Source: Chitinophagaceae bacterium (GTDB lineage Bacteria; Bacteroidota; Bacteroidia; Chitinophagales; Chitinophagaceae). Taken from it: DNA of 64,000 nucleotides. A model generated the notes under the pieces. It was not told the DNA's origin. It searched no databases and was given only the letters and a program-made list of their open reading frames with translations. Both the position numbers and the translations under genes were made by a program. The stretch lies in contig CANGYR010000007.1 in NCBI GenBank assembly GCA_947458275.1, positions 1 to 64,000 on the forward strand, written 5' to 3'. Of this stretch, positions 31,830 to 40,676 are shown in pieces; the stretch's first letter is position 1, and each line of letters opens with the position of its first letter.

Positions 31830-32648
31830 ATGTTGTTTAAAAACAAGACCGCATTCATTACCGGTGCTTCAAGAGGTATCGGCAAGGCCATTGCACTGCG
31901 GCTTGCGAGGGAGGGTGCGAATATTGTAGTGGTGGCGAAATCCATTGAAGAAAATCCAAAACTCGGAGGAACAATTTTTTCTGCAGCCAAAGAAATTGAA
32001 GATGCCGGAGGAAAAGCATTGGCCATTCAATGCGATATCCGCGATGAAATACAGGTGGAGAATGCTATTAAAAAAGCAATAGAAACTTTTGGAGGAATAG
32101 ATATACTAATCAACAATGCATCAGCCATCTCTCTTACTACGACAGAAAAAACTGATATAAAAAAATATGACCTGATGCATGACATCAACGTCAGGGGAAC
32201 GTTCATCATTTCAAAAGCATGTACTCCTTATTTGAAACAAGTATCTAATCCACATATACTTACTTTATCTCCACCAATTAATTTGGATGCAAAATGGTTT
32301 GGAAAACATACAGCATATACGGTGAGTAAATATGGCATGTCGATGATCGCATTCGGACTTGCACAAGAACTGAAGGAATGCGGCATAGCATCTAACACGT
32401 TATGGCCGAGGACAACGATTGCTACGGCAGCGGTGAAGAACCTGCTCGGAGGAGAGGCGCTGATGAACAGAAGTCGTACGCCGGAAATCGTTGCCGATGC
32501 TGCATTTTATGTCCTTTCTAAACCGTCCAAATTATGCAGTGGACATCATTTTATTGATGAAGAGGTGCTGTTGTCTGAAGGCATTACTGATTTTTCGAAA
32601 TATGCTGTTGTACCCGGTGCAGACTTGCAGGGTGATTTGTTTTTATGA
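31830..32648 (+). CDS. Short-chain dehydrogenase, HSDL2-like
   Basis: This 272-residue SDR has TGASRGIG near residues 12-19, NNAS (INNASAISLT) and YTVSKYG (Tyr-x3-Lys). The sequences KSIEENPKLGGTIFSAAKEIE and WPRTTIATAAVKNLLGG are typical of hydroxysteroid dehydrogenase-like protein 2, thought to act on fatty acyl intermediates. It is third in a tight three-gene unit with the aldo/keto reductase and the ArsC-like gene. Confidence 0.9.
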   Translation: MLFKNKTAFITGASRGIGKAIALRLAREGANIVVVAKSIEENPKLGGTIFSAAKEIEDAGGKALAIQCDIRDEIQVENAIKKAIETFGGIDILINNASAISLTTTEKTDIKKYDLMHDINVRGTFIISKACTPYLKQVSNPHILTLSPPINLDAKWFGKHTAYTVSKYGMSMIAFGLAQELKECGIASNTLWPRTTIATAAVKNLLGGEALMNRSRTPEIVADAAFYVLSKPSKLCSGHHFIDEEVLLSEGITDFSKYAVVPGADLQGDLFL

Positions 32649-32655
32649 CCACCCT

Positions 32656-32675
32656 TGTTGGTGTTATCACCAACA
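32656..32675. terminator. Hairpin after the dehydrogenase gene
   Basis: TGTTGGTG-ttat-CACCAACA is a perfect 8-bp stem, 8 nt after the stop codon. A T5 run follows only about 10 nt later, so it may be a weak terminator or a dispersed hairpin repeat. Confidence 0.45.
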
Positions 32676-32681
32676 GCGGAG

Positions 32682-32779
32682 AAATTTTTCACCGCAGAGC
32701 CGCAGAGTTCGCGAAGTTATCGCAGAGAATCTTTAATCTCTGCGTTTTCTCAGCGTCCTTCTTTCTCAGCGGTGAAATT
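32682..32779. mobile_element. CGCAGAG-family hairpin element A
   Basis: This 98-bp element has ends AAATTTTTCACCGCAGAG and TTTCTCAGCGGTGAAATT, which are inverted copies of each other. CGCAGAG words repeat inward on the left and their complements on the right, meeting near AATCTTTAATCTCTG. It sits between the convergent dehydrogenase and lysS genes and ends 5 bp from the lysS stop codon. Compare 35298-35340, 35891-35985 and 39196-39287. Confidence 0.75.
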
Positions 32780-32783
32780 ATTC

Positions 32784-34310
32784 TTATTGTCCAAAATCCT
32801 CCGGTCTCATCATTGGGAAGAACAACACATCCTGAATACTGTGCTGATTGGTAAGCAACATACAAATACGATCTATACCAAAACCGATACCACTCGTTGG
32901 TGGCATACCATATTCCAACGCTCTTAAAAAATCATGATCAATAAACATCGCTTCGTCGTCACCGCGCTCCATTAGTTTCACTTGTTCCTCAAATCTTTCG
33001 CGCTGCTCAATGGGATCGTTCAACTCACTGTAGGCATTGGCTATTTCTTTTCCGTTTACCATCAGTTCAAAACGTTCTACCAGTCCGGGTTTGCTGCGAT
33101 GCTTTTTTGTAAGTGGGCTCATTTCCACCGGATAGTCGGTGATGAATGTAGGCTGTATATAACGACCTTCACATTTCTCTCCGAATATTTCATCTATCAG
33201 TTTTCCTTTTCCCCATTTGGCATCTGCATGTATGCCTAACTGTTGGCATACACCTCTGATACCCTCTTCGTCCATTGCAGATATATCAAAACCAGTATGC
33301 TCTTTAATAGCATCAAACATCGTCACTCTTTTGAACGGTGCTTTAAAACTGATTTCTTTATCGCCTACGGTAACGGTAGAAGTACCATTTACTGCAATCG
33401 CCGCTTTCTCCAGCATTTGCTCCGTAGTATCCATCATCCACTCGTAATCTTTATAGGCAACATAAAATTCCAACACGGTAAATTCTGGATTATGTGTTCT
33501 GTCCATCCCCTCATTGCGAAAGTTTCTACTGAACTCATACACCCATTCAAATCCACCTACAATCAGTCTTTTCAGATACAATTCATTAGCAATACGCATG
33601 TACATGGGTACATCCAGTGCATTATGATGTGTAATGAAAGGTCTCGCTGCCGCACCACCCGGAATACTTTGTAATACGGGTGTATCCACCTCCAGCGCGC
33701 CACGTTCGTTCAGAAAATCACGAATGGCATTGATAAATTTGGTTCTTTTTACAAACACCTCTTTCACGCCGGGATTAACAATCAAATCAGCATAGCGCTG
33801 TCTGTAGCGAAACTCAGGATCGGTAACTTCATCAAATGCCTCTCCGTCTTTTTCCTTTACAATCGGCAAAGGACGCAATGATTTACTTAATATCGTGAAC
33901 TCACGGAGATGAATAGACGTTTCTCCGGTTTTGGTAGTGAACACATATCCTTTAATGCCAACGAAGTCTCCAATATCTATGAGTTTTTTCCAAACGTTTT
34001 GATAAAGTGATTTATCTTCTGTGGGGCAGATATCGTCTTGTCTGATATAAAACTGTATTTTTCCTGTGGCATCCTGCAGCACTGCAAAATTGGCTTTACC
34101 CATATCGCGAACACTCATGATTCTGCCGGCAATGCACACATCTGCAAAATCTGCTTTATTCTCCTCGCCTTTATAATGTGTTTTTATATATTCTGCAGTA
34201 GTATTTACCGGATATAAAGCAGCAGGATAAGGATCGATGCCCAGTTTTTCCAGTTCAGCTTTTTTCTCTCTTCTGATGATTTCCTGTTCAGATAAATGTG
34301 GTGTGCTCAT
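32784..34310 (-). CDS. lysS: Lysyl-tRNA synthetase, class II
   Basis: This 508-residue enzyme has an N-terminal OB-fold anticodon-binding domain (residues about 60-165, GRIMSVRDMGKANFAVLQD) and a class II catalytic core. Motif 1 lies around FINAIRDFLNERGALEVDTP, motif 2 is RNFRNEGMDRTHNPEF, and motif 3 is GIGFGIDRICMLL. Length and start are standard. Its stop codon is immediately followed by repeat element A. Confidence 0.97.
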   Translation of the reverse strand: MSTPHLSEQEIIRREKKAELEKLGIDPYPAALYPVNTTAEYIKTHYKGEENKADFADVCIAGRIMSVRDMGKANFAVLQDATGKIQFYIRQDDICPTEDKSLYQNVWKKLIDIGDFVGIKGYVFTTKTGETSIHLREFTILSKSLRPLPIVKEKDGEAFDEVTDPEFRYRQRYADLIVNPGVKEVFVKRTKFINAIRDFLNERGALEVDTPVLQSIPGGAAARPFITHHNALDVPMYMRIANELYLKRLIVGGFEWVYEFSRNFRNEGMDRTHNPEFTVLEFYVAYKDYEWMMDTTEQMLEKAAIAVNGTSTVTVGDKEISFKAPFKRVTMFDAIKEHTGFDISAMDEEGIRGVCQQLGIHADAKWGKGKLIDEIFGEKCEGRYIQPTFITDYPVEMSPLTKKHRSKPGLVERFELMVNGKEIANAYSELNDPIEQRERFEEQVKLMERGDDEAMFIDHDFLRALEYGMPPTSGIGFGIDRICMLLTNQHSIQDVLFFPMMRPEDFGQ

Positions 34311-34384
34311 AAATTATCTATGTGAATTTTTGCGTCACAAAGTTAACTGAATGAGTGCAGGTAAATAGCGAATCCGGAGAAAAA

Positions 34385-35269
34385 TTATGCACCCGATAAC
34401 AACACCTGCCAGGCATGAGTGGTCTTTCCCTGTTGCAGTAACTCTTTTGCGTAGGAGTGAAGTTCTTTTTCCATTTCTTCAGGATTGATGGAATAATACT
34501 GAACAATATTTTTCAGTTTATCGTCATGGAAAGAGGGGTCAATAACGGGGAGTTCATGTACATTGGCCAATTGAGCCAGGTCATTGCCAGTAAGGAGTTT
34601 GCTGTTTATTATTGATGCGGGCAGCGCCTCGAAGCCGATGCCTAACTTAGTATTTGGTTTTTCGACTTCAAAAATAGTGGAGGCGTTGGCCCGTGTATAC
34701 CAGTTGCCTCCCAAACGGGCCACCAGGTCAAGTTTGGTCTGATCGATTTTGTTATCAGCATTTAATACCGACTCATCAATATGCATCATGATTATTTCTG
34801 CAATGATCAGATTACCGGCGCCACCTTCTGTCCCAAGAGGCAGTACCTGATTGACTTTGCACTCCAATTTAATTTTACTTTCTTTCACCATAGGTGGCTT
34901 TACCATAGAAGCTTTTTCTTCTGTGAATCCGGCTTTTTGGAATTCATTTACTTCTTTTGGATATTCACATGAAGCCAGTGACATCTGTTGAATCATGTTA
35001 TAATCAACGATATTGATTACCACCTCCGGCACTTCCATTACATTCTCAAGTGTGTGCTTGGTGGTATTATCCCTCACTCTTCTTGCCGGTGAAAAAACGA
35101 CTATAGGAGGATTGGAAGAAAATAGATTGAAAAAACTAAACGGACTCAGGTTAACATTGCCGGCTTTATCTATTGTAGAAGCAAAACATATCGGCCTCGG
35201 CGCAATGGCGTGTTGCAGATAGTTTTGGAGGTCTACAGGGGATAGTTGTTGGGGATTGAGAGATAACAT
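34385..35269 (-). CDS. Flavin reductase-like FMN-binding protein
   Basis: This 294-residue protein of the flavin reductase/DIM6-NTAB family has IAPRPICFASTIDKAGNVNLSPFSFFNLFSSNPP near residues 25-58, which is the FMN-binding strand and turn, and later VNIVDYNMIQQM. The C-terminal third is family-variable. It is cytosolic, and its substrate is unknown. It is separated from lysS by about 75 nt, and upstream lies the repeat-bounded GxxExxY gene. Confidence 0.85.
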   Translation of the reverse strand: MLSLNPQQLSPVDLQNYLQHAIAPRPICFASTIDKAGNVNLSPFSFFNLFSSNPPIVVFSPARRVRDNTTKHTLENVMEVPEVVINIVDYNMIQQMSLASCEYPKEVNEFQKAGFTEEKASMVKPPMVKESKIKLECKVNQVLPLGTEGGAGNLIIAEIIMMHIDESVLNADNKIDQTKLDLVARLGGNWYTRANASTIFEVEKPNTKLGIGFEALPASIINSKLLTGNDLAQLANVHELPVIDPSFHDDKLKNIVQYYSINPEEMEKELHSYAKELLQQGKTTHAWQVLLSGA

Positions 35270-35297
35270 TATTTAAGCTTTGAACGATAAAATCAAC

Positions 35298-35340
35298 TTT
35301 TACCGCAGAGAACTGAGAGCGCAGAGTTTCCGCAGAGAAA
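35298..35340. repeat. CGCAGAG-family half element (left end)
   Basis: It starts with TTTTACCGCAGAG, with CGCAGAG at 35304, 35320 and 35331. It matches the reverse complement of the right end at about 35943-35985 over roughly 40 bp. Together the two bracket the GxxExxY gene. Confidence 0.75.
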
Positions 35341-35410
35341 TATTTTCTAATGTAAACTTAATGATTTTATTTTATCCAATTATCAGTTTCAGAGGCCTTA
35401 AGTTTAAAAA

Positions 35411-35797
35411 CTAAAAATCGTTTACAATTCTTCTAAATCCTGATTTTAATAAGGGAACATTAAAATTTATAAGATAACCGAGTTTTTTATTGTATAGCTT
35501 AAGATAGGTTATAACCTGTGCTGTATGAATCGGATTTAATGTCTCAACAGACTTATTCTCAATTATAATTTCATTTTCAACCAGAAGATCTATTTCATAA
35601 GCCTTACCAAGACTTTCCTCTTTATAGGTTAATTCAACAGGAACCCTTTCTCTAACATACAATCCTCTTGTCTCAAGTTCTTTTTTAAGGGCAATTTGGT
35701 AAGCTGACTCTAACAATCCGGGTCCCAGTTCCCGATGAACATTAATCGCAGCATCTAGAATGACGGATCCAATTAGATTAAGTTTTTGATTTACCAT
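35411..35797 (-). CDS. GxxExxY protein (PD-(D/E)XK nuclease-like)
   Basis: This 128-residue protein contains the signature GPGLLESAY (GxxExxY) near residue 25. A nuclease-like core follows: the Asp of YEIDLLVE, the E-x-K of IIENKS, and a downstream HTAQVITYLKLY, matching the order of a PD-(D/E)XK active site. The family (Pfam PDDEXK_3) has no established function to my knowledge. The gene is alone in its spacer and is flanked on both sides by CGCAGAG inverted repeats, which suggests that it and the repeats form one mobile or selfish unit. Confidence 0.9.
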   Translation of the reverse strand: MVNQKLNLIGSVILDAAINVHRELGPGLLESAYQIALKKELETRGLYVRERVPVELTYKEESLGKAYEIDLLVENEIIIENKSVETLNPIHTAQVITYLKLYNKKLGYLINFNVPLLKSGFRRIVNDF

Positions 35798-35890
35798 TTT
35801 ATATTTTCATTTGAATAAAAATATAAAAAGTAATCATTTGATTGAACTTTTGAAACTGAACTTTATTTAGAGAAATTGACAGTACAATAA

Positions 35891-35985
35891 AATTCACCTC
35901 AGAGAACCAGAGAAAAATGAGTTTTCGCAGAGAAGCCATAAACTCTGCGTATCCTCTGCGCTCTTCTTTCTCAGCGGTAAAAATT
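35891..35985. mobile_element. CGCAGAG-family hairpin element (full copy)
   Basis: This 95-bp element starts AATTCACCTCAGAG and ends TTTCTCAGCGGTAAAAATT, with CGCAGAG words on the left and their complements on the right around CATAAACTCTGCG. Its right end overlaps the stop codon of the neighbouring hydrolase gene (35984-35986). Confidence 0.75.
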
Positions 35986-36994
35986 ACAAACTCTTTTTCA
36001 AAGAAAGAATCGAAAATTCATCCTCATCCTTCACTATTGTATTCGATAAATGCCCCAGCCCATCTATCTCCATCTCCACTACGTCCCCTGGCTGCAACCA
36101 TTGTTCTTTATAATTAGGGTCATTCAATTTGCCGGTTCCATTTAGCTCAAGAAAACAACCCGTTCCTACAGTACCGCTACCTATCACGTCACCGGGATAT
36201 AAATTGACTCCGTAACTGCATCTTTCAATAATCTCTGCAAACGTCCAGTCCATATCTCCAAGATTTCCCTCGCTCACCTGAATGCCATTGACCTTACATT
36301 TCATAGTAAGATTCCAGCTTTTTCCTGTGTGTCCCTGTTTACAAGGTATTTCAAAAGATTCCAGTTCGTCTAATGTTACCAGCATAGGTCCGATAACGGT
36401 TGAAAAATCTTTTCCTTTAGCGGGTCCGAGATTGAGCAACATCTCCTCCATTTGTAATCTTCTCGCACTCATGTCATTCATTATCATCAAACCGCCAATG
36501 TAATCATCCGCCTTCTCCGCACGAATGTTTCTCCCATGTTTACAAATCACCACCGCCGCTTCCAACTCGAAATCCAATTTTTCAAAATGATCCGGCATAC
36601 ATACAATATCCCCCGGCCCCTGGATGCTGTTGTGATTAGTGAAATAAAATATGGGGTACTGATCAAACTCAGGAATCATATCTACTTTTCTGTTTCTTCT
36701 TGCCGCCGCCACATGCTGACGAAAGGCATACCCATCCCTGCAACTGGTTGGATGCGGAACCGGCGCCAGAATGGAGGACTCATTAAACACCGCCGAATGA
36801 ACCGGGGCAATCAATCCGTCTTTTATGCGCTTTTCGGCAGCCAATGCCAAAGGAAAAACATCCTCCCAGTAATTAAGAAACATGGCCATGCTGATAGGCA
36901 AATCAGGATGAAGCAAATCGGTATCATACAATAGACCATTGACAAGAATTGCCAGCTGATCCTGATCATTTTTTAAATACGTTACTAACTTCAT
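35984..36994 (-). CDS. Fumarylacetoacetate hydrolase family protein
   Basis: From the ATG at 36994 (MKLVTYLKNDQDQ) this is 336 residues; an upstream in-frame start at 37033 adds only 13 atypical residues. The FAH fold carries metal ligands in FELEAAVVICKHGRNI and the Asp of NDMSARRLQ, and GSGTVGTGCFLEL near the end. Members cleave beta-diketo acids, for example in tyrosine degradation. The sequence resembles bacterial FahA-like enzymes, but no other tyrosine-pathway genes are adjacent. The 3' end touches a repeat element. Confidence 0.85.
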   Translation of the reverse strand: MKLVTYLKNDQDQLAILVNGLLYDTDLLHPDLPISMAMFLNYWEDVFPLALAAEKRIKDGLIAPVHSAVFNESSILAPVPHPTSCRDGYAFRQHVAAARRNRKVDMIPEFDQYPIFYFTNHNSIQGPGDIVCMPDHFEKLDFELEAAVVICKHGRNIRAEKADDYIGGLMIMNDMSARRLQMEEMLLNLGPAKGKDFSTVIGPMLVTLDELESFEIPCKQGHTGKSWNLTMKCKVNGIQVSEGNLGDMDWTFAEIIERCSYGVNLYPGDVIGSGTVGTGCFLELNGTGKLNDPNYKEQWLQPGDVVEMEIDGLGHLSNTIVKDEDEFSILSLKKSL

Positions 36995-37079
36995 ATTTGC
37001 AAGATAAGGCAGCAAAAATAACAATCCCTGCACACGTAAAAAAAGTAATTACTATTTTTGTTACGAAAATCATTCTGCT

Positions 37080-37742
37080 ATGAATTTTCAAAAAATAAAT
37101 AATAAAGGACAGGCTCAATTATTTAGAAATGCCTACCTGGAATATCTTACAAAAACCCATCCTTTGGTGATTTGGGCATTGTATACCCCAATGATTGTCC
37201 TTCTGCCTTATTACGCACTTTATAAATTAGGATTTGCCGGATCAACCACATTCTTTGTTTTTTTAGGAGGGATTTTTTTCTGGACACTGACTGAATATGC
37301 TATACATCGTTTTTTATTCCATCATCATCCAGATACAGAAAAAGGAAAAAGAATAAATTATATTCTTCACGGTAACCATCATGAATTCCCGAGAGACAAA
37401 GAACGTTTGTTCATGCCTCCGATACCAAGTCTTATTATCGCTTCTGTCTTTTTTAGTGTTTACTATTTTCTTATCGGAAAATACGCTTTTGCATTTTTTC
37501 CCGGATTCATGCTTGGATACCTTATTTATGCCACCATGCATTACGCCATACATGCCTGGAATCCTCCTTTCAAATGGATGAAACCACTTTGGAGAAACCA
37601 TCATCTTCATCATTATAAACATGACGACCTGGGCTTTGGTGTCAGCAGTACCCTATGGGATCATGTATTCGGTACCATGTTTGATTTGAAAACAGAAAAA
37701 GAAGATAAAGAGAAGGTTAAAGAGCTGATGTTTAGAAATTAA
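37080..37742 (+). CDS. Fatty acid hydroxylase/sterol desaturase family protein
   Basis: This 220-residue integral membrane di-iron enzyme has four hydrophobic segments and the His clusters HRFLFHHHP, HGNHHEFP, HYAIHAW and HHLHHYKH that bind two irons. It is closest to the FA2H type, which 2-hydroxylates fatty acyl chains of sphingolipids or ceramides. Bacteroidota make sphingolipids, so that substrate is plausible but unproven. Confidence 0.9.
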   Translation: MNFQKINNKGQAQLFRNAYLEYLTKTHPLVIWALYTPMIVLLPYYALYKLGFAGSTTFFVFLGGIFFWTLTEYAIHRFLFHHHPDTEKGKRINYILHGNHHEFPRDKERLFMPPIPSLIIASVFFSVYYFLIGKYAFAFFPGFMLGYLIYATMHYAIHAWNPPFKWMKPLWRNHHLHHYKHDDLGFGVSSTLWDHVFGTMFDLKTEKEDKEKVKELMFRN

Positions 37743-37849
37743 GCTTTGAGAAATATAAAATATCCAATATAAAATGTAAAAGGAGGTAAATCATTCAGTT
37801 TTACATTCAGTATTTAACATTTTGCATTTTACATTCTTTTTTCTTTCTC
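37743..37849. repeat. Low-complexity repeat (TAAAATGTAAAA/TTTTACATT type)
   Basis: Left words (AAATATAAAATATCC, AAAATGTAAAA) are complementary to right words (TTTTACATTC, TTTTGCATTTTACATTC), giving an imperfect inverted array between two genes, comparable in plan to the 9-bp arrays. Confidence 0.55.
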
Positions 37850-37857
37850 TATTTTTG
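37850..37857 (+). promoter_or_regulatory. -7 element of trmB
   Basis: TATTTTTG matches TAnnTTTG and ends only 6 bp before the chosen ATG (37864), which would give a very short or absent leader. Confidence 0.5.
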
Positions 37858-37863
37858 CAGCGC

Positions 37864-38571
37864 ATGGGACAAAAGAAATTGCTGCGATTTAATCAGATTA
37901 AAACCTTCTCCAACATTTTCGAATACCCAAAAGAGATGAAGGGTAAATGGCGCGAGTATTTTGGCAACAACCATCCCATTATACTCGAACTTGCCTGTGG
38001 TAGAGGAGAATATACCGTTGGACTTGCGCGCTTATTTCCGCAACAGAATTTTATTGGCGTTGATGTAAAAGGCAATCGCATGTACATAGGGGCTAAGAAA
38101 GCTTTGGAAGAACCCTTGCCCAATGCAGCTTTTCTCAGAACGCAGATTGAAATGCTTCCCGAATATTTTAATGATGAAGAAGTGGATGAGATATGGATTA
38201 CTTTTCCTGATCCGCAACTGCGCACATCCAGAGCAAAAAAAAGACTTACACATCCGAGGTTTTTGAGACTTTATACCCAGGTAATCAAAAAAGGCGGCAT
38301 CATTCACCTGAAAACAGATTCGCCTGACTTATACAGGTTTACTCATAAGGTAATTGAGATGTACGGTTTGCAGTTGATCAACAGTTCGGAAGATGTCTAT
38401 GCACAAAAAGATATTGATGAAAGGTTGACTATCAAAACATATTATGAAAGTCTGGACATTGCACAAAGCAACAAAATTTTTTACCTTTCCTTTTCACTGC
38501 CTGAAAATATTCCCTCCATTGATGGTGAATTACAGGAATTTTTGAAGAAAACCGAACAAACCCAAGACTGA
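37864..38571 (+). CDS. trmB: tRNA (guanine-N7)-methyltransferase TrmB
   Basis: This 235-residue SAM-dependent enzyme methylates G46 of tRNA. Motif I is LELACGRGEYTVGLA, FIGVDVKGNRMYIGAKKA is the SAM acidic loop, and IWITFPDPQLRTSRAKKRLTHPRFL is the family signature. The ATG at 37864 (MGQKKLLRFNQI) fits the family and follows a -7 box; an in-frame ATG at 37822 lies upstream of that box. Confidence 0.94.
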   Translation: MGQKKLLRFNQIKTFSNIFEYPKEMKGKWREYFGNNHPIILELACGRGEYTVGLARLFPQQNFIGVDVKGNRMYIGAKKALEEPLPNAAFLRTQIEMLPEYFNDEEVDEIWITFPDPQLRTSRAKKRLTHPRFLRLYTQVIKKGGIIHLKTDSPDLYRFTHKVIEMYGLQLINSSEDVYAQKDIDERLTIKTYYESLDIAQSNKIFYLSFSLPENIPSIDGELQEFLKKTEQTQD

Positions 38572-38588
38572 AATTGTAATGTACTGAT

Positions 38589-38792
38589 ATGGCGACGAAG
38601 CAACTCGTTGAAGGCGTAGATTTTTATTATAACAAAGACGGATATGTTGTCCTGACCGAGAAATACCATCTCGATAAAGGTGTTTGCTGCGGTAATGGCT
38701 GCTTGCATTGTCCTTATAACTACGAAGCGGTGCCCGAACCCAAAAAATCTGAGCTTATAAAAGCGAATGAGAAAAAAAATAAAGAGCAGTGA
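38589..38792 (+). CDS. DUF5522 family protein
   Basis: This 67-residue protein has LVEGVDFYYNKDGYVVLTEKYHL and a Cys cluster CCGNGCLHCPYNY, suggesting a small metal-binding protein, possibly with an iron-sulfur or zinc site. The family is found in Bacteroidota and other bacteria with no known function. It overlaps the next gene by 26 nt, and this tight link suggests co-expression with the alkyltransferase-like protein. Confidence 0.85.
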   Translation: MATKQLVEGVDFYYNKDGYVVLTEKYHLDKGVCCGNGCLHCPYNYEAVPEPKKSELIKANEKKNKEQ

Positions 38793-39150
38793 TGAGCTGC
38801 CACTCAATCATTCCGGGAAAGAATATAATTTCTTCGAAAACGTTTTCGATGTAGTATTGCAGATACCAAAAGGGCGTGTGACCAGCTACGGAGCGATAGC
38901 GCAATATCTCGGTACAAAAATGAGCGCGAGAATGGTGGGCTGGGCCATGAACGCCTCACATCAATCATCCAAAAAAATACCCGCACACAGAGTTGTAAAC
39001 AGAAACGGCATGCTTACCGGCAAACATCATTTTGCTACTCCTACACTGATGGAAGAATTGCTGAAAAAAGAGGGCATTGCAGTAAAAGACGACACTGTCG
39101 TTGATTTCAAAAAAATATTCTGGAACCCCAAAGAGAGTTTAAATGTTTAG
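38767..39150 (+). CDS. Alkyltransferase-like protein (MGMT family, no acceptor Cys)
   Basis: This 127-residue protein has the DNA-binding wing FDVVLQIPKGRVTSYGAIAQYLG, then MVGWAMNAS and IPAHRVVNRNG. In true O6-alkylguanine transferases the active site is PCHR; here it is PAHR. The protein therefore cannot accept alkyl groups and should belong to the ATL class, which binds alkylated guanine and hands it to nucleotide excision repair. uvrB is elsewhere in this window. Its start overlaps the DUF5522 gene. Confidence 0.9.
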   Translation: MRKKIKSSDELPLNHSGKEYNFFENVFDVVLQIPKGRVTSYGAIAQYLGTKMSARMVGWAMNASHQSSKKIPAHRVVNRNGMLTGKHHFATPTLMEELLKKEGIAVKDDTVVDFKKIFWNPKESLNV

Positions 39151-39360
39151 AAGTTTAGAGGTTTAGGTAAATCGACTAAAGAGCTAAATCTATCCTTTTA
39201 CCGCGGAGTCGCAGAGAGTGCAAAGTTTTCGCAGAGAAGTTAACCTCAGCGTTTCCTCTGCGTTCTTTTTTCTCAGCGGTGAAGTTTGAATGCTTAAACT
39301 TTAATAATTTGAACGTTTAGAAAAATCTACTAAACTTCTAAACACCTAAACCATCAAACT
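39137..39360. repeat. Inverted GTTTAGAAG-type array split by element D
   Basis: Left words (GTTTAGAAG, TTTAGAGG, GTTTAGG) at 39137-39172 are complementary to right words at about 39320-39350 (CTAAACTTCTAAACACC). The CGCAGAG element at 39196-39287 lies between them. Confidence 0.65.
39196..39287. mobile_element. CGCAGAG-family hairpin element D
   Basis: This 92-bp element starts TTTTACCGCGGAGTCGCAG and ends TTTCTCAGCGGTGAA, with inverted CGCAGAG-type words inside. It is nested within another inverted repeat array, implying it arrived later. Confidence 0.75.
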
Positions 39361-39901
39361 AGACATAGTAGGGGCTGATCATCCAATACACAATCACTCC
39401 CGTAACTGCCACATACAACCAAACCGGCCATGTGATACGTGTCAGTTTTTTATGTTTATCATATTCTCCAATCAAAGCGCGATAGGCGGTGAAAAGTATG
39501 AAAGGAAGTATGATGCCTGCAAGCGGAATGTGTGTAAAAAGAATGAGATAGTACAAAGTCTTTATTGTTCCTTCTCCTCCGAATTTGGTTTCTCCGGCAA
39601 ATAAATGATGTGCGATGTAGCTCAACAAAAACAAAACAGAGAGAACGATTGCGGTCATCATAATTTTTTTATGCAACACATAGTTTTTCTGTTTGGCAGT
39701 AACCAATCCTGCAATCAGCAATACAGCCACTAGGGAATTAACGATAGCGCTTATCGTTGCAAAGACGTGTGGATTAAAAGGGAGGTTTACGTCAAGTTGT
39801 ATCTTATTAAGTATCACAACTGCCGCAAATACTATAACCGATAGCGTTAGTATTATGATGCGGGCTTTCGAATCATTTTTTTGCAAAACGGGAGTGAGCA
39901 T
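39359..39901 (-). CDS. DUF420 membrane protein
   Basis: This 180-residue protein has about five transmembrane segments and His residues in FNPHVFA, LHKKIMM and YIAHHLF. DUF420 (CtaM-like) proteins are associated with cytochrome oxidase assembly in Gram-positive and other bacteria. It overlaps the SCO1 gene by 29 nt and lies at the end of the respiratory cluster, consistent with that role. Confidence 0.85.
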   Translation of the reverse strand: MLTPVLQKNDSKARIIILTLSVIVFAAVVILNKIQLDVNLPFNPHVFATISAIVNSLVAVLLIAGLVTAKQKNYVLHKKIMMTAIVLSVLFLLSYIAHHLFAGETKFGGEGTIKTLYYLILFTHIPLAGIILPFILFTAYRALIGEYDKHKKLTRITWPVWLYVAVTGVIVYWMISPYYV

Positions 39902-40676
39902 TATGTTTATTTTTTCTGTTTAAAAAACTAACGGTAAATATAGTTAACCCTATACCAACAAAGATAACCGGAAGATAGGGAATAAACTCTCTAAGTATTG
40001 AAGGACTTTTCTTGTCTTTTTCCAGCATAAGCGTAGGGATGTCTCTAGCCAGTTGTCCTTGTTTTACCGTATCAAAACCATTGTACCAACCTCTCACTAT
40101 TCTGTTGGTATCCAGCAAAAAGAAGTTTTCCGTATGTATAAAAGCTGTATCTACATTCGTATCGGCAATGCTTGCTTTTAATTCATTGATGGCAAAATCA
40201 TAAATTTCTTTTTTATTCCCGCTCACAAACCACCAGTTGTCGTGATTGATGTCAAAACGATCGGCAAACTTTCTCAGCTGAGGAACGCTGTCGTATTCGG
40301 GGTCTACGCTGATGGAGATGAATTGAACAATATCCGGATTCTTGACATAAGAAGTTTGAAGCTTTTTCATAGATTGAGCCAAACCCGGACAAATTGAAGG
40401 GCAACGACTGAAGAAAAAATCAAATACAATTATTTTTCCTTTCAAATCATTTAATGAAACCGAATCTCCCAATTGATTGACAAATGAAACATTTTTTACT
40501 ATATGCCAAATGGTATCATTAAAAGATTTTCCGTTTTTTTCTTTTACCACCACATCATCATAAAAATATTTGCGCGGCATATGAACTGCATCTTTACTGT
40601 AATACTTAACCAGCCAGTATCCGGAAAGAGGCATCAAAATTGCCAGTATGAATACTATGAGTGTTTTTTTATTCAA
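39873..40676 (-). CDS. SCO1/SenC copper chaperone
   Basis: This 267-residue protein is anchored by an N-terminal transmembrane segment, with a thioredoxin fold outside. The copper-binding Cys pair lies in FFFSRCPSICPGL, and the third ligand His in DTAFIHTENFF. A second hydrophobic segment (VIFVGIGLTIFTVSFL) near the C-terminus is unusual for compact SCO proteins. It delivers copper to the CuA site of subunit II. It lies downstream of the oxidase genes beyond a terminator. Confidence 0.93.
   Translation of the reverse strand: MNKKTLIVFILAILMPLSGYWLVKYYSKDAVHMPRKYFYDDVVVKEKNGKSFNDTIWHIVKNVSFVNQLGDSVSLNDLKGKIIVFDFFFSRCPSICPGLAQSMKKLQTSYVKNPDIVQFISISVDPEYDSVPQLRKFADRFDINHDNWWFVSGNKKEIYDFAINELKASIADTNVDTAFIHTENFFLLDTNRIVRGWYNGFDTVKQGQLARDIPTLMLEKDKKSPSILREFIPYLPVIFVGIGLTIFTVSFLNRKNKHNAHSRFAKK

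Follow-up and report, generated by a model that had tools for sequence, protein, structure and literature searches.

In REP/RAYT systems, a gene for a Y1/HUH transposase lies between inverted REP copies, with a GTAG foot at the repeat. Free-standing homing endonucleases cleave and invade empty alleles. REPs have been counted in two Flavobacterium genomes (PMC12306157); the words nuclease, transposase and RAYT are absent from the accessible text of that study. The S23/IVP intervening sequences of rRNA are bordered by complementary sequences, according to the accessible part of PMC4990558. They are also described in PMC11270868, and 23S rRNA IVP is among the figure-legend labels of a study of CRISPR-linked proteins (PMC10910872), both likewise accessible in part. 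The GxxExxY family is named in three papers (PMC8934634, PMC12085832, PMC9756366), whose accessible portions give neither a repeat association nor a function. No paper tying this family to repeats was found in the literature searched, which contained few subscription papers.

Here, we analyse a GxxExxY gene that lies between inverted repeats in a contig of a Chitinophagaceae bacterium. The window (i.e. the whole stretch of DNA analysed) is 64,000 nucleotides long. The locus resembles REP/RAYT in its layout, and differs from it in its enzyme and its ends.

Results

The locus in the window

A sequence-only reading of the window had described almost identical inverted ends around a single GxxExxY gene, with D and E-x-K residues in PD-(D/E)XK order. 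Both observations were confirmed. The two arms are inverted repeats of 43 nt, 81% complementary and 605 nt apart, and the GxxExxY gene is the sole listed gene between them (Table 1). Its product matches TIGR04256 (E = 7.1e-41; 139.2 bits vs a curated cut-off of 35) and PF13366 (137.5 bits), and has the conserved residues. In the window, 2.84 copies of the word CGCAGAG are expected and 19 are present; 0 of 100 shuffles reached 19.

The host genome (G000) measures 2.9 Mb and has Flavobacterium-like genomes among its class-level relatives. It contains two GxxExxY genes; the arms of the second, at locus L002, use another word, around GATTTAAATGATTGAATGA (arm alignment score 62). Both gene-less palindromes in the window fold as hairpins. 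The repeat search detected an inverted pair in the first palindrome of Table 1 and, at the settings used, none in the second. The tRNA synthetase gene beside the first is presumably lysS. By eye, GTTTAGAAGTTTAGAGGTTTAG-type inverted repeats (39143-39165 and about 39318-39357) surround the second; they resemble an IVP-element word family, and the repeat families are thus apparently nested.

Table 1. Position of the GxxExxY gene, its arms, related palindromes and flanking genes in the window.
Feature	Position	Strand	Remarks
Arm, 3' side of the gene	35295..35337	+	Holds TTTTACCGCAGAGAACTGAGAGCGCAGAGTTTCCGCAGAG; three inward-reading CGCAGAG words
GxxExxY gene (TIGR04256/PF13366), 128 aa	35411..35797	-	E29, D69, E79-x-K81, Q93-x3-Y97; residue 124 is V (predicted CGC reader)
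Extra CGCAGAG word, 5' side of the gene	35919..35934	+	GAGTTTTCGCAGAGAA; opposite direction
Arm, 5' side of the gene, inverted copy	35943..35985	-	ACCGCTGAGAAAGAAGAGCGCAGAGGATACGCAGAG
Gene-less palindrome, same repeat family	32687..32777	no strand	Flanked by two convergent genes, for a short-chain dehydrogenase and a class II tRNA synthetase
Gene-less palindrome, same repeat family as the window arms	39196..39284	no strand
Flanking gene, Flavin_Reduct domain (PF01613)	34385..35269	-	Query for the orthologous site in relatives
Flanking gene, FAA_hydrolase domain (PF01557)	35984..37033	-	Other side of the orthologous site; listed ORF start may be too far upstream

The GxxExxY family

In a 73-row alignment, E29, E79, K81 and Q93 do not vary, and conservation is at least 90% at D69 and Y97. 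The residues H20, D69, E79-x-K81 and Q93-x3-Y97 follow the same order as in Cas4/RecB-type nucleases, and we take the order D, E-x-K, Q-x3-Y to be the PD-(D/E)XK motif of RecB/Cas4 type. We infer that the GxxExxY protein is a PD-(D/E)XK nuclease with a Cas4/RecB-like residue pattern. The window protein has a weak match to PADLOC Cas4 over residues 37-106 (E = 0.0087). Cas4 nucleases carry a cysteine cluster, whereas the window protein, which stands alone between inverted arms, has no cysteine and hence no such cluster. An 8-row GxxExxY profile matched no PDB sequence at E = 10, and a search with the window protein or a small profile gave no PHROG match.

The gene is present in 183 of the 295 genomes of the class; the collections analysed contain one genome for each species. 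At 1e-5, the window protein matched 0 of 50,697 phage records and 7 of 72,556 plasmid records, in a search in which distant lineages could be missed. Spread by phages or plasmids was dropped as an explanation on these counts.

Bracketing by inverted arms

To detect bracketing, the 300-350 nt upstream of a gene were aligned with the reverse complement of the 300-350 nt downstream, with the 99th percentile of shuffles as threshold. In a first set from the window's genus, arms were found in 19 of 29 GxxExxY loci, compared to 5.0% of other-locus pairs and 8 of 113 control ORFs; L078 (GxxExxY) and L115 (IVP) were dropped for short flanks. The first set is contained in an enlarged set of 74 loci drawn from 96 matches; of its 65 distinct loci, one was dropped for a short flank. 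Here, arms matched within 42 of 64 loci, in 1 of 254 pairs of different loci of one genome and in 2.3% of 3,778 pairs between genomes. Among named genomes of several phyla, represented by the best 80 of 582 confirmed matches, 52 of 76 loci were bracketed (L131, L138, L149 and L157 were left out of the count), against 12.0% of 5,700 cross pairs and 8 of 175 neighbour genes (Fisher 1.4e-26). By record title, the bracketed loci among these best 80 include Bacteroidota, Ignavibacteria, Cyanobacteria, Chloroflexi, Planctomycetota, Acidobacteria and Proteobacteria; the two Verrucomicrobia loci, the Zetaproteobacteria locus and the one archaeal bin (L141) in the same 80 were below the threshold. A later, non-random set of 93 loci consisted of the best-scoring listed class matches plus three Flavobacterium loci. 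In this set, 63 of 92 loci were bracketed (one was dropped) and 9.7% of 8,372 cross pairs.

Hence, GxxExxY genes are flanked by repeats beyond chance, as the sequence-only reading had proposed to check. Most of them (about two thirds) own an arm pair, and roughly a third have none visible to this test. In contrast, CGCAGAG did not hold as a signature of the family. Lineages carry different words, which vary even between loci of one genome, and the word was therefore rejected as a signature; the general rule is that a protein and its own arm pair match.

With respect to co-directional flanking genes, 93 GxxExxY genes point with their neighbours and six against them. The gene is therefore probably expressed from the host operon, by read-through, although ordinary middle genes are nearly as often co-oriented (103 of 120 triples; small middle genes 31 of 38). 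Because of this control, strong co-orientation was dropped as evidence for an RNA function.

Word arrays and their match to the protein

Many arms are arrays of 7-mers, CRCNRAG, with spacers of 1-9 nt; other lineages use different words. Left and right words were compared in the 27 of 145 loci that have at least three CRCNRRG words in both arms. Arrays in these 27 loci mostly begin with AAC after T-rich DNA, and AAC or something similar mostly stands before the words. The two arms agreed at word position 2 (0.89-0.93 vs 0.50-0.51 in permuted pairs), at word position 5 (0.85-0.93 vs 0.50) and in spacer length (0.89 and 0.78 vs 0.34 and 0.20). Position 4 was not clearly matched, with agreements of 0.67, 0.56 and 0.63 vs 0.57, 0.45 and 0.60, values reached by 150, 212 and 690 of 2000 permutations. 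Copying of the arms or perfect stem pairing would have matched position 4 along with positions 2 and 5. Thus, recent duplication or gene conversion and selection for a perfect stem are both disfavoured. Spacer letters of the 27 loci agreed above the permuted level (0.43 and 0.46 vs 0.22), so that some copying or pairing of the arms may occur.

Arms also follow the protein. Across the 42 genus loci that have arms, the more similar two proteins are, the more similar their arms tend to be (Spearman 0.24; reached in 0 of 2000 Mantel permutations). When loci are ranked by the similarity of their arms to those of a given gene, that gene's closest protein relative from another genome falls, on average, within the top 4.2%. 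Co-inheritance explains part of this match. Six Flavobacterium elements at one site (see below), in which synonymous sites are for the most part saturated, show 88% identity in word columns and 70% in spacer columns.

Residue 124 (window numbering) tends to be V with CGC words and I with CAC words. In the discovery set (n = 68), residue 124 and word base 2 combined as V-G in 37 loci, V-A in 4, I-G in 0, I-A in 20 and otherwise in 7. On a tree built without the candidate protein columns, word base 2 changed 13 times, vs a mean of 22 for shuffled labels, and residue 124 switched between V and I in 9 of the 12 nearest contrasting pairs. The later set, of which 56 of 93 loci were classified, gave 27 V-G, 2 V-A, 0 I-G, 18 I-A and 9 other (Fisher 4e-11). 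It is not wholly independent of the discovery set: 10 of its 93 proteins share at least 80% identity with a protein of that set, and for two of the 10 the match is exact. After removal of these relatives and of three Flavobacterium at-site loci, the counts (n = 50) were 25 V-G, 2 V-A, 0 I-G, 15 I-A and 8 other (Fisher 1e-9). At less than 70% identity to discovery proteins (n = 28), they were 19 V-G, 1 V-A, 0 I-G, 6 I-A and 2 other (Fisher 3e-5). Residue 98 ranks level with residue 124 in the later set, and residue 124 therefore need not be the sole determinant. Residues 13 and 17 relate to word base 5, less cleanly than residue 124 to base 2. A base-5 code at residue 17 was set aside, since it fared less well in the later set (I: 22 G and 11 A; other residues: 1 G and 12 A). 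Taken as sequence evidence, the matching of word positions, the conservation of words over spacers and the residue-124 correlation argue for recognition of the arms by the protein.

Gene-less relatives

The sequence-only reading had also reported gene-less copies with the same ends. The palindromes are real. However, by eye, one of their arms is of the same type as the arm upstream of the gene (ACCGC[AT]GAGAAAnAAG...), and several copies have another arm that is laid out differently (ACCGCAGAGCCGCAGAG...), which makes them relatives rather than simple deletion copies of the window locus. The pattern CGCAGAG-N0..20-CGCAGAG has 60 matches in the whole genome vs 0 for the reversed control. Sixteen repeat places were sampled from 30 of the 60 matches; 15 are intergenic, with eight between convergent, five between co-directional and two between divergent genes. 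Nine gene-less copies of this genome, picked by their ends, are on average 76% identical, vs 45% for their flanks.

Across the 295 genomes of the class, we counted the pattern ACCRCNRAG-N0..10-CRCNRAG, with the reversed pattern as control. The 183 genomes with a GxxExxY gene have 5.77 repeats per Mb vs 1.34 in the 112 genomes without (p = 2e-13; this and the following p values are optimistic, because the genomes are related), and the control gave 0.85 and 0.90 per Mb, respectively. Median numbers in the genus are six copies in 27 genomes with the gene vs one in 12 without (p = 0.003). Six of the 112 genomes without the gene still have at least 20 repeats. In genomes with at least eight copies, CGC makes up 0.40 of the genome-wide repeats in 13 V-only genomes vs 0.20 in 11 I-only genomes (p = 0.006), a comparison that includes the elements' own arms, uses a sample of the resident genes of each genome, and sets aside five genomes with other letters at residue 124. 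Exceptions are the I genomes G126 and G275, which are high, and the V genomes G219 and G189, which are low.

Occupied and empty sites

The flanking Flavin_Reduct gene was searched against 59 relatives, of which 55 matched, and 30 loci were examined. A GxxExxY gene with arm-like repeats occupies the site in six of them (the window, L037, L041, L042, L045 and L056; the contig of L042 ends before the second neighbour). L052 has a short palindrome alone. In 21 loci the neighbours are 3-110 bp apart, with neither the gene nor a CRCNRAG palindrome, although L039 has other short repeats, and for L035 and L059 no second neighbour was found. The arm word varies among the occupied species, e.g. CGCAGAG in the window and CCGCTAAGACGGGAAGGCGC in L042. 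The host genes of L037 and L045 at the site are 90% and 91% identical, whereas their GxxExxY proteins are only 64% identical. Conversely, the L037 protein shares 76-80% identity with its counterparts in the window and in L056, where the host genes are less closely related. Since close hosts hold distant proteins, different GxxExxY lineages have held this site.

By eye, L045 contains repeats of the arm plus a piece resembling the start of the GxxExxY gene, and tandem arm-like units flank the gene on both sides in L042. These arrangements suggest slippage or repeated end duplication. In L151 (Flavobacterium), the GxxExxY gene lies between an Aconitase-family and an Aconitase_C-domain gene, which we take to be leuC and leuD, and at L257, in a genome of another family, the gene has homologous flanks; the same operon gap is thus filled in distant hosts.

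A second site, between a HemN-type radical SAM gene and a cyclase-family gene, was read in 38 loci of Flavobacterium-like genomes, i.e. the nearest 30 of 320 Flavobacterium genomes with a match plus eight other loci. GxxExxY elements are present in six (one, L286, with a stop near the start), and L314 has a decayed GxxExxY gene that keeps both arms; at a site, the gene can decay while the arms stay. Fifteen loci have gene-less inserts, which by eye are four CRCNRAG palindromes and 11 of other word families; the palindrome of L305 mixes CAC and CGC arms. Seven loci (L285, L288, L289, L291, L308, L313 and L273) have small genes with inverted ends of their own (TGCTGAACTAGTTTCAGCA), and nine are empty (3-25 bp). 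The varied states imply that the junction was entered several times by different elements. Inverted ends of the seven small genes lie around CTGAACTAGTTTCAG. The gene of L285, the one scanned of the seven, is a GIY-YIG gene (PF01541, E = 2.4e-17). As a further observation, the upstream genes of L305 and L306 are 91% identical over 520 nt, while L306 has a GxxExxY element and L305 the mixed-arm palindrome, which suggests recombination between elements at one junction.

The GxxExxY gene at this junction is under strong purifying selection (dN 0.01-0.09, dS mostly saturated), and in most pairs its dS is as high as that of the neighbour genes. L306/L158 is the sole pair with a clearly lower dS of the gene (0.22 vs 0.45 and 0.71). 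Recent homing is unsupported for most pairs, as dS is high or saturated, and the dS comparison with neighbours caught no recent jump at this junction. Purifying selection and neighbour-like dS also fit a host function. Classical insertion sequences and MITEs are characterised by a DDE transposase and a target-site duplication. No target-site duplication was definable, as the junctions have diverged, and no second gene lies between the window arms.

The search for empty orthologous sites thus revealed presence/absence polymorphism, both in the genus and at the Flavobacterium junction; neither this check nor the one on bracketing refuted the sequence-only reading. The idea of an autonomous element with non-autonomous derivatives is partly supported: repeat number is linked to the gene, word type tends to follow the protein, and two lineages (L037, L045) occur at one site in closely related hosts. 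On the other hand, the element was not observed to move, target-site duplications were not resolvable, and the at-site Flavobacterium copies are mostly as diverged at synonymous sites as their neighbours.

Other single-gene carriers

Similar anatomy is found around some small genes of other families. Of the S23/IVP genes in the genus (L093-L122), 16 of 29 are bracketed vs 3.3% of other-locus pairs. Small GIY-YIG genes of the window's genus have matching flanks in 6 of 20 loci, vs 2.6% of other-locus pairs; the small gene L324 and six large genes were dropped for short flanks, and three large genes were left as control. Thus, some small GIY-YIG and S23/IVP genes have an anatomy similar to GxxExxY elements. 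The S23/IVP four-helix-bundle genes have word families of their own in inverted repeats (GTTTAGAAGTTTAG, AGTATTGAGTATTGAG, TTGGAGGTTGGAGG), and of 30 such genes 22 are co-oriented with both neighbours and one is opposed to both. G026:C3:42336-43999 contains five tandem GIY-YIG matches with a regular 365-bp period, as if amplified head to tail.

Discussion

We consider it probable that the window locus is a single-gene element whose ends are word arrays recognised by the GxxExxY protein, and which moves in a REP-like manner. Such a unit would measure about 0.5-0.7 kb. At its ends, short words would be arranged in inverted arrays; the word is CGCAGAG here, CRCNRAG in many relatives and lineage-specific in others. 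The GxxExxY protein would recognise the words of its own arms; as a nuclease it may bind both arrays, bring the ends together and cut there. The element, and gene-less palindromes with matching words, would rarely be copied or moved into intergenic gaps. Bracketing, the matching of arm to arm and of arm to protein, the residue-124 correlation, the gene-less relatives and the occupied and empty sites are all read from the DNA and protein sequences, and the mobility of the element is what we infer.

The words specific to the protein, and the strong purifying selection at the Flavobacterium junction, would also be expected if the protein were a host gene kept by selection, which binds the arrays to control its own gene or acts on structured DNA, with palindromes as binding sites spread in some other way. 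We regard such an operator system without mobility as unlikely. Presence at orthologous sites is patchy, the gene decays in place (L314), lineages turn over at one site (L037, L045), the arms flank the gene on both sides, and the nine gene-less copies, although picked by their ends, are far more alike than their flanks. Arms on both sides also make a type III toxin-antitoxin system a poor fit. In those systems, tandem RNA repeats lie upstream of the gene only.

Pairing of the arms in the operon transcript, followed by removal of the element by RNase III, would render the insertion harmless, as in 23S rRNA intervening sequences. Such an RNA-level element would suit the co-oriented intergenic insertion, the analogous arms of S23/IVP genes, the strong folding of gene-less copies and the spacers that match above permuted pairs. 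However, no perfect stem is kept, given word position 4 and a spacer identity of 0.43-0.46, no Rfam family was matched at 32000-40000 of the window, and the residue-124 correlation is left unexplained; we find this reading quite improbable. We give very little credence to a free-standing homing endonuclease gene whose product would cleave empty alleles at the same junction, so that repair copies the gene in, with palindromes as by-products. The nuclease family (TIGR04256/PF13366), the occupation of the same junction in several species and the GIY-YIG elements found there speak for it, but in most Flavobacterium at-site pairs the gene is no less diverged in dS than its neighbours, indicating little recent same-site spread, and dozens of dispersed gene-less copies are not predicted by homing.

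The mobile single-gene element thus remains our preferred reading. In a wider form, which we advance tentatively and with less than even confidence, it would represent a new minimal class of mobile elements, in which a stand-alone PD-(D/E)XK nuclease reads modular inverted arrays by a residue-to-base code (V124 for CGC, I124 for CAC), a re-targetable lock and key across bacterial phyla. Taken together, this class and the GIY-YIG and S23/IVP carriers, with word families of their own, might explain much of the dispersed palindrome content of Bacteroidota genomes. The mobile-element reading offers a source for one class of dispersed palindromes, and leads to a sharp prediction, namely that a single base of the recognised word is set by a single V/I residue. 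It also gives a widespread family, so far merely named in the papers found, a concrete partner in the form of its own arms. Should it be confirmed, an unrelated nuclease would be driving a REP-like system.

Comparison with known systems

Free-standing homing endonucleases resemble the GxxExxY unit in that a nuclease gene sits in an intergenic junction and is present or absent in relatives. They differ in that the GxxExxY gene has inverted arms of its own and dispersed gene-less relatives, and shows little sign of recent same-site transfer. The 23S rRNA intervening sequences with S23/IVP share a small gene between complementary ends and a patchy distribution in relatives, whereas the GxxExxY unit is intergenic between protein genes, encodes another protein, and has protein-matched words instead of a perfect stem. 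REP/RAYT (TnpA-REP) likewise has a small gene between inverted copies of a dispersed palindromic repeat that is mostly gene-less and often located at gene ends. However, the enzyme of the GxxExxY unit, encoded by the sole gene inside the window arms, is of PD-(D/E)XK rather than Y1/HUH type, and its ends are modular word arrays, mostly with an AAC start, rather than GTAG hairpins. As both enzyme and ends differ, the GxxExxY element is not a RAYT; it has the appearance of a small mobile element of a kind not described before.
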